IMG/VR virus record: IMGVR_UViG_3300022752_000197
Location: 1 to 35,998 of that record
Strand: one strand, 5' to 3'
DNA: 35,998 bases
Origin: a virus
This document shows positions 229-19,775 of this stretch, piece after piece. The stretch's first letter is position 1. Each line of letters begins with the position of its first letter. The notes under the pieces are model-generated. The model did not search any database and had not been told where the DNA came from. It saw nothing but the letters and a program-made list of their open reading frames with translations. A program made the translations under genes and the position numbers.

Positions 229-739
229 ACTACATCGCGGTTTGCACGCCAGCGCGTGATCAGGTCCACACCAATTACACATATTGCATGGTCAACCTTG
301 TTGCGTATCACACGCTCAACACCACTGATGCCATCAGTCTGAAACTGTTGCAAGGCACGCTAATCCAAAACCAGCGTGCTGACTTGTGTTTGGATGCGAT
401 GCGCGAAGGATGCACGCATGTGCTGTTCATTGATTCAGACATGACTTTCCCTCAGGACATGATTCAGCGGCTACTCAAGCATGATGTTGACATCGTTGCG
501 GCCAACTGCGCGAGGCGCAGGATGCCAACAGGACCAACCGCGCAGAACTATGACGAGAACGGCAAGCGCAAACCTGTCTATTCGATGCCAGAATCCACTG
601 GGCTTGAAGAAGTTGGCAGCGTTGGCACTGGTGTCATGCTGATCAAGCGCAACGTCTTTGAGGGCATGTCAGAACCCTGGTTTGATATGCCTTGGCAGTA
701 TGACACTCGAGGCTACATGGGCGAAGACGTGTTCTTTTG
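1..739. repeat. Left copy of imperfect terminal repeat
   Basis: This stretch aligns without gaps to 35260-35998. I count about 35 substitutions in 739 positions, mostly at third codon positions. It carries the end of a 104-residue protein gene and most of a glycosyltransferase-like gene. The repeat is most simply explained as overlap of the two ends of a circular or circularly permuted genome assembled from two close strains. Confidence 0.9.
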
Positions 740-16621: not shown

Positions 16622-17601
16622 AAACTTCAAGGGTTTCTGATGATGAAGTCATACGCGCTATCGCCAACTCAAAATCAATGCAAGCTGCAAGCAATGCCCT
16701 CGGTCTGGATGTGTCTGCGCTTTACAAGCGGCGCAGAAACATTGAACACAAACGCAAAGAAAAAATTGAGGCTCCGACTGATCACAAAAAAAAGCAGTAT
16801 GAACATTTGCAAATTTCGCTCACGCATCCGCATCAGAACGATTTGGGTATTTTGAATGGAGTGGTAATCGTTTTTTCAGACGCACATTTTTGGCCTGGTG
16901 TACACACAACTGCGTATAAGGGACTTTTGTGGGCCATTAAAGAATTGCAGCCCAAGGCCGTGATTGCAAATGGAGACATTTTTGATGGCGCTGGCATTTC
17001 TCGCCACGCCAGAATCGGGTGGAGCAGCGCCCCAACAGTGATTGATGAACTTAAAGCCTGCGAATTGGCCATGGGCGAGATTGAAGAAACCGCTAAACAA
17101 GCCAGGTCAAATGTTAGTTTGATTTGGCCTTTGGGCAATCATGATGCGCGGTTTGAGACATTTCTGGCGGCAAACGCGCCGCAATATGAGCACGTAAAGG
17201 GATTCAGTTTAAAAGACCATTTTCCTGCATGGCAACCGTGCTGGTCAGTTTGGATCAATGAGACAACGTGCGTGAAGCATCGCTTCAAGGGCGGCATTCA
17301 TGCAACGCACAATAACACGCTATGGGCTGGCACAACCATCGTAACAGGGCATTTGCACAGCTTAAAAGTCACACCGTTGAGTGATTACAGAGGTGTCAGA
17401 TATGGAATTGATACCGGGACATTGGCCGAACCATACGGCCCACAATTTCGAGACTACACAGAAAATAGCCCATTGAATTGGCGATCTGGGTTTGCCGTTT
17501 TATCTTTTCACAATGGCAAATTGATTTTGCCCGAATTGGTGATGCCACACGGCCCAGATTCGATTGAATTCCGAGGCCGTGTGATACCTCTCACTAAATA
17601 G
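16618..17601 (+). CDS. HTH-metallophosphoesterase fusion
   Basis: This 327-residue protein joins an N-terminal helix-turn-helix (DDEVIRAIANSKSMQAASNA, then LGLDVSALYKRRRNI) to a calcineurin-like phosphoesterase. The metal ligands are all present: D88 and H90 in SDAHFWP, D120 in NGDIFDG, N173-H174-D175 in GNHDARFE, and H245/H247 in TGHLHSLK. The HTH suggests it acts on DNA, as an endonuclease or phosphodiesterase, but the substrate cannot be read from sequence. It starts at an ATGA overlap with the acetyltransferase and its end overlaps a leftward gene by eight bases. Confidence 0.85.
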   Translation: MKTSRVSDDEVIRAIANSKSMQAASNALGLDVSALYKRRRNIEHKRKEKIEAPTDHKKKQYEHLQISLTHPHQNDLGILNGVVIVFSDAHFWPGVHTTAYKGLLWAIKELQPKAVIANGDIFDGAGISRHARIGWSSAPTVIDELKACELAMGEIEETAKQARSNVSLIWPLGNHDARFETFLAANAPQYEHVKGFSLKDHFPAWQPCWSVWINETTCVKHRFKGGIHATHNNTLWAGTTIVTGHLHSLKVTPLSDYRGVRYGIDTGTLAEPYGPQFRDYTENSPLNWRSGFAVLSFHNGKLILPELVMPHGPDSIEFRGRVIPLTK

Positions 17602-17797
17602 CAGATTCGTCTTCTTCTTCGTCTTCTTCGTCTTCTTCTTCGTCATCAAACTCAATGGCTTCCCAAGCACCACCCCAACCTTCTTTTTCTTGAAAGTCAA
17701 TAAATTCTTTCAGAACCTCAATCTTGTCGAAGTCCATGGTTTCGATGGTGATTTTTTCTTCAGAATTCCAACCAACAACAATTTCAATTTTATACAT
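17594..17797 (-). CDS. Very acidic small protein
   Basis: The ATG at 17797 has a GGAG ribosome site five bases upstream; a GTG at 17803 is also in frame. The 67-residue product has a short beta-like N-terminus (MYKIEIVVGWNSEEKITIET) and an extreme acidic tail (FDDEEEDEEDEEEDES). I count 27 Asp/Glu against five Lys and no Arg. Such charge is known in phage DNA-mimic inhibitors, but it also occurs in unrelated proteins. It is last in the leftward small-gene operon. Confidence 0.7.
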   Translation of the reverse strand: MYKIEIVVGWNSEEKITIETMDFDKIEVLKEFIDFQEKEGWGGAWEAIEFDDEEEDEEDEEEDESAI

Positions 17798-17862
17798 GAT
17801 CACTCCTTGTACTGCGGATTGCAGCTAGATCATGGTAAATTTCAAAAATGACAAAACTTTGA

Positions 17863-18129
17863 CTAAGTTTTATAGCAAATTTCCATTTCTAAGTCTTTGA
17901 CTTTTTCACGCAAGATTAAGTTCTCATTCTCCAAATCTTTGTATTCACTCTTTAATTTTTCACAAGTAAATTTTACGGCATTGCTATAGCCAATCAAAAC
18001 ACCATTGGTAATACATTTACGAATAGTTTGTTTAAATTCATGACGTGACATCATGATGCATACTGTCTCACTTGAAGGACACATTTTTTCGATTTCTTTG
18101 TCAATTTCCAATTGCATTTTTTTGTTCAT
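17863..18129 (-). CDS. Small helical protein of the leftward operon
   Basis: The frame is open from 18153, but the ATG at 18129 is preceded by GGAGGG seven bases away and is chosen. The 88-residue product starts NKKMQLEIDKEIEKMCPSSE and ends in a coiled-coil run (KLKSEYKDLENENLILREKV). No known domain is seen. A weak AT-rich hairpin overlaps its stop (17853-17871). It lies two bases from the upstream gene, so it is co-transcribed. Confidence 0.7.
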   Translation of the reverse strand: MNKKMQLEIDKEIEKMCPSSETVCIMMSRHEFKQTIRKCITNGVLIGYSNAVKFTCEKLKSEYKDLENENLILREKVKDLEMEICYKT

Positions 18130-18131
18130 TT

Positions 18132-18317
18132 TTAAACCCTCCATACTAAACAATCAAGAGAAACAACAACTAATGCAATCAGGCTGATGATACGAATAAT
18201 CTTCTCAGCGGTGCTGCATCGGTAGACATAAATTTCAATTGATGCGCCATTCTCCAAGCTTTTGGGGAATGCCTCTGTAAAAGTGCGCGCGTATTTCCGA
18301 GTTGTTTCATTTGACAT
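18132..18317 (-). CDS. Small single-pass membrane protein
   Basis: This 61-residue protein has a charged N-terminal part (SNETTRKYARTFTEAFPKSL) and a C-terminal membrane segment at about 41-60 (IIRIISLIALVVVSLDCLVW). It therefore probably sits in the inner membrane with its N-terminus inside. The start overlaps the end of the upstream gene by 11 bases. The function is unknown. Tiny membrane proteins in phage early operons sometimes block superinfection or host processes, but nothing here proves that. Confidence 0.65.
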   Translation of the reverse strand: MSNETTRKYARTFTEAFPKSLENGASIEIYVYRCSTAEKIIRIISLIALVVVSLDCLVWRV

Positions 18318-18477
18318 GATGGTCTTTCTTTGTTTTTTGGAATGATTCTTTTAATTGCTTACGCAACCAAGCCACACCACCAAGTTTTTTCCATTCGACA
18401 TAATGCACTGGAATCAACCTGGCGCTAACTGTTTTGGTCACTGATGTCATTTCACTTTTGGGTCTGGGCACATTCAT
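18307..18477 (-). CDS. 56-residue protein, possible ribbon-helix-helix type
   Basis: This gene reads from the ATG at 18477 to the TGA at 18307-18309. The product begins MNVPRPKSEMTSVTKTVSA and continues ARLIPVHYVEWKKLGGVAWL, RKQLKESFQK. The strand followed by two helices recalls small ribbon-helix-helix DNA-binding proteins, though this is weak. GGAG lies four bases upstream of the start. The start shares four bases with the stop of the upstream gene (ATGA overlap), which strongly supports a real translated gene. Confidence 0.65.
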   Translation of the reverse strand: MNVPRPKSEMTSVTKTVSARLIPVHYVEWKKLGGVAWLRKQLKESFQKTKKDHHVK

Positions 18478-18719
18478 CTCCAAGCCGTAAGGGCAGTTGC
18501 AAGATCTTTGGTTGATACGATGAGTTGATCCAGGCGCATGGACTCATCGGCAACAACAAACAGTCCTGGGCCGCGTTTGGTGCGTCCCCAAGCGTCTTTG
18601 CGGTTAACGTTGGAGATCTGGTTCTTGCGCACGGCGTTGTAGACCTGGTGCGTTGTAAATCCTTCATCAATGCATTCACGCATGGTGCGAGGAACACGGC
18701 AGAAGTCAATGATCGTCAT
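18474..18719 (-). CDS. Small helix-turn-helix-like protein
   Basis: This 81-residue protein contains RECIDEGFTTHQVYNAVRKN followed by a short wing-like segment ending GLFVVADESM. The pattern suggests a helix-turn-helix DNA-binding unit. The start at 18719 has GGAGGA upstream, and the gene overlaps the preceding one by 14 bases and the following one by four. It may regulate the leftward operon or the control region, which carries a perfect palindrome. That link is inference. Confidence 0.65.
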   Translation of the reverse strand: MTIIDFCRVPRTMRECIDEGFTTHQVYNAVRKNQISNVNRKDAWGRTKRGPGLFVVADESMRLDQLIVSTKDLATALTAWR

Positions 18720-18834
18720 TTAGATCGTCCTCCTCTTCATGATTTTCATTATCAGGTGGTGCATCATCAGGGTGCAAGGATCTGGATAAAATTTTGAACC
18801 ATTTTTCCTGTTGCTCATCAATCTCATCAAACAT
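18706..18834 (-). CDS. 42-residue acidic protein, first of leftward operon
   Basis: The ATG at 18834 has a perfect AAAGGAG ribosome site five bases upstream. The product begins MFDEIDEQQEKWFKILSRSL and ends with an acidic tail (NENHEEEDDLNDDH). The frame stops inside the next gene, overlapping it by 14 bases. It is too short for ordinary gene callers, but the ribosome site, the promoter a few tens of bases upstream and the coupling make it convincing. The function is unknown. Confidence 0.7.
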   Translation of the reverse strand: MFDEIDEQQEKWFKILSRSLHPDDAPPDNENHEEEDDLNDDH

Positions 18835-18859
18835 TTTTTCTCCTTTGGTTGACACGCAA

Positions 18860-18887
18860 ATCATACAATTATTGATGAATTCATCAA
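18860..18887 (-). promoter_or_regulatory. Leftward promoter with 16-bp palindromic operator
   Basis: Read on the minus strand, TTGATG (18882-18887) and TATGAT (18860-18865) are separated by 16 bases and form a good promoter for the leftward operon. The perfect palindrome TTGATGAATTCATCAA occupies 18872-18887, covering the -35 box and much of the spacer. A dimeric repressor bound there would block the promoter. The Cro-like protein at 19072 or the HTH-like protein at 18474 could be the ligand. Confidence 0.65.
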
Positions 18888-18933
18888 ATACCCATTAATT
18901 TAGTCAACTATTTGCTTTTGTACAATCACCATC

Positions 18934-19028
18934 GGCGGGTTCATCTTCCCGCCAATTGCGGCGAATGATTCCATTCGTTGCGGTTGCCATTTGAGGGCTG
19001 GGCATTTCTGTTCAGCCCTCATTTTTTC
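18934..19028 (+). ncRNA. Three-hairpin leader or small RNA candidate
   Basis: Three hairpins follow each other: GGCGGG/CCCGCC at 18934-18953, a 10-bp stem with two G-U pairs at 18958-18981, and GAGGGCTG/CAGCCCTC at 18993-19020, the last followed by ATTTTTT. A -10-like TACAAT lies at 18921-18926, though the -35 is poor. No open frame fits this stretch. It could be a small RNA or an attenuating leader of the early operon. Confidence 0.5.
18993..19028 (+). terminator. Rho-independent terminator ahead of early operon
   Basis: An 8-bp GC-rich stem (GAGGGCTG pairing with CAGCCCTC, loop of 12) is followed by ATTTTTTC. It points rightward although no rightward gene lies between 17601 and this site, so it must end a short leader or small RNA rather than a messenger from an upstream gene. 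Confidence 0.75.
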
Positions 19029-19071
19029 ATTGGCTTGCACAAAATGTCAAATTGGGGTTAACATCCAAGCC

Positions 19072-19308
19072 ATGAAAACAACTGACAATCCAATCAAAGA
19101 CGTGATGTCAAAGGCCGCCGCCGCAGGCTACTCAATGGCCGATGTCTGCCGTGTCGCAGAGATCGATCAGAGTCAAGCCAGCCGCTGGCTCAGTGGCCGC
19201 ACCAAGCCTCTTTATGCCTCTGTAGTGCGCCTTAATCAGGTGGTTGATGCCATGGTAGCGGCTAGACTTCAAGTGCTCAACAAGGCGCTGGACGAGGCCC
19301 AACAATGA
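19072..19308 (+). CDS. Cro/C1-type helix-turn-helix regulator
   Basis: The frame is open further upstream, but the ATG at 19072 gives a proper 78-residue protein. Residues of about 20-50 form a helix-turn-helix (GYSMADVCRVAEIDQSQASR, then WLSGRTKP), like the Cro/C1 family. It is the first gene of the rightward early operon and lies beside the divergent control region. Its likely role is to switch between leftward and rightward transcription. The ribosome site is weak (GGGG 14 bases upstream), and a terminator sits just before it, so expression may need read-through. Confidence 0.75.
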   Translation: MKTTDNPIKDVMSKAAAAGYSMADVCRVAEIDQSQASRWLSGRTKPLYASVVRLNQVVDAMVAARLQVLNKALDEAQQ

Positions 19309-19775
19309 GGCACATCGGAATCGATCCAGGTTTGTCTGGTGCTGTGGCCATCATTTCTGATGACTCACTCAAAGTCTTTGACATGCCTATCATGACGGTG
19401 GATCGCAACGGTAAGGCCAAGCGCCAGGTGTCAGCGAACGAGCTGGCCGAGTTGCTTTACACTTTCTCTGGCAAAGATTGCCATGTTTACGTTGAGCGCG
19501 TCTCTGCCATGGCAGGGCAAGGCGTAACGAGTGTCTTTAGCTTTGGCCGCTCGTTCGGGATGATTGAGGGCATCTTGGCCGCGCTCAAGATGCCAGTCAC
19601 CTTTGTGGCCCCTGCCACTTGGGTCAAGGGTGTTGGCCGCGGCCCCGGCAAAGATGCCAGCCGGGCCAGGGCAATGGAGCTTTTCCCGAATTACGAGTAC
19701 TTCTTCAAGCGCGTCAAGGATGATGGCCGGGCTGACGCTGCACTGATTGCACATTGGGGGCGTAAGCATGGATGA
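19305..19775 (+). CDS. RuvC-like Holliday junction resolvase
   Basis: This 156-residue enzyme has the RNase H-like fold of RuvC-type resolvases. The first acidic ligand is D7 in HIGIDPGLSGA, the second is E64 in VYVERVSA, and the last pair is D140/D144 in DDGRADAALIA. The central part (GVTSVFSFGRSFGMIEGILA) matches the RuvC core. It probably resolves branched DNA before packaging, cutting in the cytoplasm as a dimer. It starts at an ATGA overlap with the regulator and overlaps the next small gene by eight bases. Confidence 0.85.
   Translation: MRHIGIDPGLSGAVAIISDDSLKVFDMPIMTVDRNGKAKRQVSANELAELLYTFSGKDCHVYVERVSAMAGQGVTSVFSFGRSFGMIEGILAALKMPVTFVAPATWVKGVGRGPGKDASRARAMELFPNYEYFFKRVKDDGRADAALIAHWGRKHG

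Follow-up and report, generated by a model that had tools for sequence, protein, structure and literature searches.

The gap between two divergently oriented groups of genes in the window, i.e., the whole 35,998-base virus record analysed here, carries what we regard, with a probability of about 65%, as a free-standing phage small-RNA gene, whose product of 65-100 nt would most likely act in trans and probably serves as a regulator during infection. The RNA is found in more than 100 viral contigs, all from uncultured phages represented by metagenomes only, and it is kept in nearly all contexts examined. No Rfam family matches it at gathering thresholds, in line with the original prediction, to which no known RNA family was evident, and based on this result and a search of the open-access literature, it probably constitutes a new phage-encoded family. 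To our knowledge, small RNAs have received little characterisation in uncultured environmental phages. The sharply defined core of this RNA offers a target for mutation and makes it a candidate for RNA-based control in such phages, and the alignment and covariance model obtained here can be used for annotation.

Gene layout and RNA architecture

The gap adjoins genes for replication and recombination, and gene direction switches there (Table 1). The last rightward gene upstream of the element ends at 17601, about 1.33 kb away, and the plausible genes in between are leftward, which bears out the earlier remark that the terminator has no rightward gene for 1.4 kb before it. The array of three hairpins with its terminator and the TACAAT box, all first read from the letters alone, were likewise recovered. 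The element folds with a minimum free energy of -52.8 kcal/mol; the mean of 200 shuffles was -27.4 (sd 3.5), which gives z = -7.2, and none of them was as good. A generic terminator scan returned four candidates where 4.0 were expected by chance, that of the element being the strongest (13 pairs, T6); neither the loose terminator scan nor the promoter scan rises above chance alone. The main support for the element is comparative.

Table 1. Coordinates of the gap, the predicted RNA and the flanking features in the window.
Feature	Position	Strand	Evidence or remark
Divergent gap	between leftward small ORFs (17594-18864) and rightward operon from 19072		ORF list, sequence
Leftward promoter-like site TTGATG, 16 nt, TATGAT	18860-18887	-	Promoter scan (not above chance alone), sequence
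Palindrome TTGATGAATTCATCAA, possible operator	18872-18887		Overlaps leftward promoter-like site
P_R1, promoter-like: box GTCAACTATT (18903-18912) and -10-like TACAAT (18921-18926)	18903-18926	+	Sequence, relatives
Predicted small RNA, about 95 nt	18933-19027	+	Fold, covariation, covariance model match at 18952-19026; inferred 5' end placed from -10 box, 3' end from terminator
Hairpin 1, 6 bp	18934-18953	+	Fold, covariation; missing in two-hairpin form
Hairpin 2, 14 bp (4 G-U)	18954-18985	+	Fold, covariation; corresponds to the only 5' hairpin in the two-hairpin form
Core GUUGCC, near-invariant	18983-18988	+	Kept in 106 of 108 contexts
Intrinsic terminator	18992-19027	+	13-bp hairpin (18992-19021), then U6 (19022-19027); scan, fold, covariation
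P_R2, promoter-like: TTGCAC, 18 nt, TAACAT, 7 nt before HTH ATG	19035-19064	+	Sequence, same spacing in relatives
TTGCACAAAATGTCAA, possible operator	19035-19050		Within P_R2
Small HTH protein gene	19072-19308	+	First of operon; HTH models match below cut-offs
RuvC-like Holliday junction resolvase gene	19305-19775	+	Second of operon; PHROG 1770, E 8.9e-36

Conservation among related phages

Searches with the exonuclease protein and the RuvC-like protein yielded 57 and 80 loci, respectively, on contigs that are partly the same, and in most of these loci a small HTH gene lies directly upstream of the RuvC-like gene. The gap follows a common order, beginning with a leftward promoter-like site, the box GTCAACTATT or GTCGGGTATT, TACAAT (or TAAACT) and one or two hairpins, and continuing with GUUGCC, the terminator, and a second promoter ending in TAACAT, 7 nt and the ATG. 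The closest relatives of the window have three hairpins including the terminator, in about 100 nt, and the wider group has two, in about 65 nt; a single hairpin ahead of the terminator is thus the form of most members. In the most distant relatives (e.g., L035-L046) no element precedes the HTH gene.

Two features that the original prediction lacked, the near-invariant GUUGCC and the second promoter-like site past the terminator, proved to be widespread. The pattern of P_R2 plus HTH start matched at least 120 viral stretches, a lower bound like all scan counts of relatives given here, on metagenomic and partly redundant contigs, and a collection of 84,980 bacterial and archaeal genomes gave no match to it. 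The sequence [A/G]GUUGCC followed by a T-run occurs in 106 of 108 unique full contexts, the exceptions being one with GUCGCC and one seemingly without the 5' part; these contexts were found without reference to the RNA, yet some loci had first been fetched by an RNA pattern, hence the set is not wholly independent. Among loci fetched by protein alone, core and T-run were present in 50 of 50 extracted RNAs, extraction having required a -10-like box and a T-run.

In further searches, a DNA search of cultured phages gave no match, the exact terminator pattern was not found across viral contigs, and RNA patterns returned nothing convincing from the 84,980 bacterial and archaeal genomes, where the only two matches (L308 and L309) look like chance and are probably coding DNA. 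Two regions of named phages with relatives of the HTH protein (L304 and L306) were examined, and the element is absent from both. In the former (L304:3001-3307; MW202879.1) the HTH homologue lies on the plus strand of the locus, opposite to a ribbon-helix-helix gene annotated in the record, an annotation that may be on the wrong strand. A separate observation concerns the contig IMGVR_UViG_3300011116_000225 (69,407 bases), in which the region occurs twice, in diverged copies some 34.6 kb from each other (L026/L059 and L007/L077); the contig perhaps represents two related phages joined during assembly.

Promoter-like sites and probable transcription of the operon

Of a promoter and a terminator belonging to the RNA itself, the terminator is clear, and the promoter-like box is conserved with no -35 consensus seen at P_R1, so that an activator is possible. 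A script placed the TATT of this box at 7-8 nt from the -10 for 71 of the 90 unique relatives; for 14 others it gave a spacing of 4, but these read TATTATTG and on inspection agree with 7 nt. At P_R2 of the relatives, 18 nt separate TTGAC or TTGCA from TAACAT, which lies 7 nt before the ATG; in more distant phages (L142, L159, L161, L165, L202, L208, L236 and L243) the 7-nt distance was recognized by eye with other -10 letters. No Shine-Dalgarno sequence is apparent before the HTH ATG, and the HTH mRNA, which would start at P_R2, is probably leaderless, for which cI of lambda, transcribed from P_RM, is a precedent. Relatives carry a comparable TTGAC...GTCAA-like site at the place of the leftward promoter-like site, and in the window such sites occur near all three promoters (the palindrome, the P_R1 box and TTGCACAAAATGTCAA); they are possibly operators of one regulator, as far as visual resemblance can suggest.

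With P_R2 lying after the terminator and 7 nt before the HTH ATG, the operon appears to be separately transcribed, and this, together with the promoter-like box and terminator that bracket the RNA, favors a free-standing RNA over a leader or attenuator. RNA polymerase would start just past the TACAAT of P_R1 and end at the terminator, giving an RNA of 65-100 nt composed of one or two 5' hairpins, the core GUUGCC and the terminator hairpin with U6. The HTH operon would initiate apart from it at P_R2, and the HTH protein or another phage regulator may control the promoters together, as the TTGAC...GTCAA-like sites suggest. The RNA itself would most likely act in trans through GUUGCC and its flank, its partner being either an mRNA of the phage or host, with which it would pair, or a protein that it would bind.

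The original prediction had left the choice between a small RNA of about 95-100 bases and the leader of an early operon with a terminator that has to be passed, and it is the former that gains from the promoter-like box, the terminator and the compensating changes. A cis-acting leader or attenuator is in our judgement unlikely. In that scheme, P_R1 would be the early operon promoter, and HTH-RuvC expression would depend on conditional passage of the terminator, brought about by a put-like RNA, by an N-like protein or by an alternative RNA fold. The element does lie upstream of an early-type operon, and when the RNAs are cut before the 3' arm of the terminator, its 5' arm is predicted to pair upstream (mean probability 0.42 and 0.65); the terminator helix nevertheless dominates the full-length folds (0.95 and 0.94), and such a leader would have to accommodate a promoter-like site at a fixed 7 nt from the ATG, between terminator and operon, across the family. 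In addition, the second hairpin before the terminator is missing in most members, which speaks against the put-like version in particular.

Covariation and strand

The compensating stem changes that the original prediction proposed to look for in related phages were found in two alignments. Among 61 two-hairpin RNAs, for which the tested structure was named by hand, 94.9% of cells are paired and 11 of 17 pairs have changed on both sides; covariation amounts to 0.466 against 0.257 in shuffles, with none of 500 as good, and pairing falls to 34-61% in slid controls. The 22 three-hairpin RNAs, including that of the window, have 90.4% of cells paired and seven compensatory pairs, helix 1 showing little variation (one pair changed on both sides) and helix 2 being less well kept (81%); the covariation counts of both sets are inflated by relatedness of the sequences. 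Trained on the two-hairpin set, the window excluded, a covariance model finds the window element with 33.4 bits (E 1.5e-6 in 418 kb) and no convincing second copy. No conserved ORF is apparent within the RNA: no more than 21 of the 61 two-hairpin sequences and 10 of the 22 three-hairpin sequences contain an ATG. The conserved structure, as looked for in a phage small RNA, thus has no apparent protein-coding explanation.

The terminator is the best conserved helix of the two-hairpin alignment (99% of cells paired) and sits just upstream of P_R2, as would be expected if the hairpins only blocked stray transcription into that promoter and the short RNA were a by-product. We consider this insulating role very unlikely, given that it leaves the compensation in the 5' hairpin, the near-invariant GUUGCC and the conserved box and -10 unexplained. 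In the two alignments, G-U cells outnumber A-C mismatches by 142 to 21 and 127 to 23, i.e., about six-fold, and since a G-U pair is a mismatch on the other strand, this excess argues that the plus-strand RNA is under selection. A replication origin, a protein-binding cruciform or another element of the DNA itself could be imagined next to replication and recombination genes where gene direction changes, but it is extremely improbable in view of this one-strand signal, a U-run on one side only and a GC-skew in which no clear turning point was found.

Possible targets and related RNAs elsewhere

The core is fixed although the pairing of its GUU differs between the two forms (largely paired with three hairpins and partly free with two, according to the predicted folds), and it is therefore probably kept for its sequence. 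Native combinations of the RNA with the leftward leader or HTH mRNA paired no better than swapped ones. A recurrent core-pairing site at the start regions of phage loci, located at a conserved ...DPLVAALFG end before variable leftward genes, was judged to reflect coding constraint. GGCAAC at gene starts ranked third among 90 permutations in a comparison with no genome-wide background control, and many of these are Met-Ala-Thr starts. Window genes 5260 and 29036 both start with AUGGCAAC, which is complementary to the linker GUUGCCAU of the three-hairpin RNA, and this start holds in the sampled three-hairpin phages (7 of 7 for 5260 and 6 of 6 for 29036), with most orthologues of 29036 outside these phages reading AUGGCUAC or AUGGCCAC; as the matches amount to about one evolutionary event, they serve as a lead only.

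RNAs of the same plan lie beside a different gene set in L144 and L227, which fits a trans-acting unit, though the core was itself part of the pattern that retrieved both. In a sister clade (L047-L056), the N-terminal reading frame of the RuvC-like gene contains a block of TACAAT...GCAGUUGCCU, hairpin and T-rich sequence, and the hairpin arms of this block, though coding, compensate between phages (GGGACAGGC/GCCTGTCCC and GGGGGTGGGC/GTCCACCTCC). The covariance model gives the block modest scores (E 5e-4 to 0.03), and its homology to the small RNA is possible. It is also conceivable, albeit quite doubtful, that the RNA belongs to a new effector class, its GUUGCC having as partner not one mRNA but a protein, from host or phage, or a universal host RNA; if true, this would explain the fixed core against diverging hairpins and the apparent recurrence elsewhere, including the RuvC reading frame of the sister clade.

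A second, unrelated conserved phage RNA was noticed in L227 (about 575-730, plus strand), L144 and L345-L374. It consists of AGCCGUUAAGCCUGAUCCCGACCCC, a variable hairpin and CCGGGGUCAGACUUAACGGCUUUUUU, has a promoter-like site upstream, occurs in 33 viral stretches, and matched no Rfam family when taken from L227 and L373. A search with its pattern indicated that the GTTGCC RNA is usually not linked to it.

Comparison with known systems

The C4 antisense RNA, a phage immunity RNA, resembles the window RNA in being small, structured and encoded in a phage control region. The window RNA differs from C4 (RF01695; listed in PMC2864571) in having no Rfam match at gathering thresholds, and no pairing site for it was found in the leftward leader or HTH mRNA.

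The putRNA of HK022 measures about 70 nt, contains two stem-loops and enables polymerase to read through terminators further downstream (PMC9378689). The window form likewise has a pair of neighbouring stem-loops where an early transcript would begin; unlike in putRNA, a strong terminator follows them directly, and the two-hairpin majority has one stem-loop before it and so does not fit the put plan, which makes the suggested antitermination role unlikely.

In lambda, OOP is encoded in the regulatory region adjoining the replication genes. OOP, PreS and VpdS are among the phage small RNAs that have been reviewed: OOP is antisense to cII, and the phage-encoded PreS and VpdS have mRNAs as their targets in trans (PMC12197685). 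Hfq binding and targets are established for the latter two (PMC12197685); trans action on mRNAs, the point of likeness, is a proposed mode for the window RNA. Compared to OOP, no sequence relation emerged from the Rfam search and no leftward gene is seen over the window RNA, where the minus strand has no ORF of at least 50 aa over 18933-19027, a finding that speaks against an OOP-like antisense RNA. What the window RNA does share with OOP of lambdoid phages is its form and its place, namely a short RNA with a terminator in a regulatory region near replication genes (PMC12197685).
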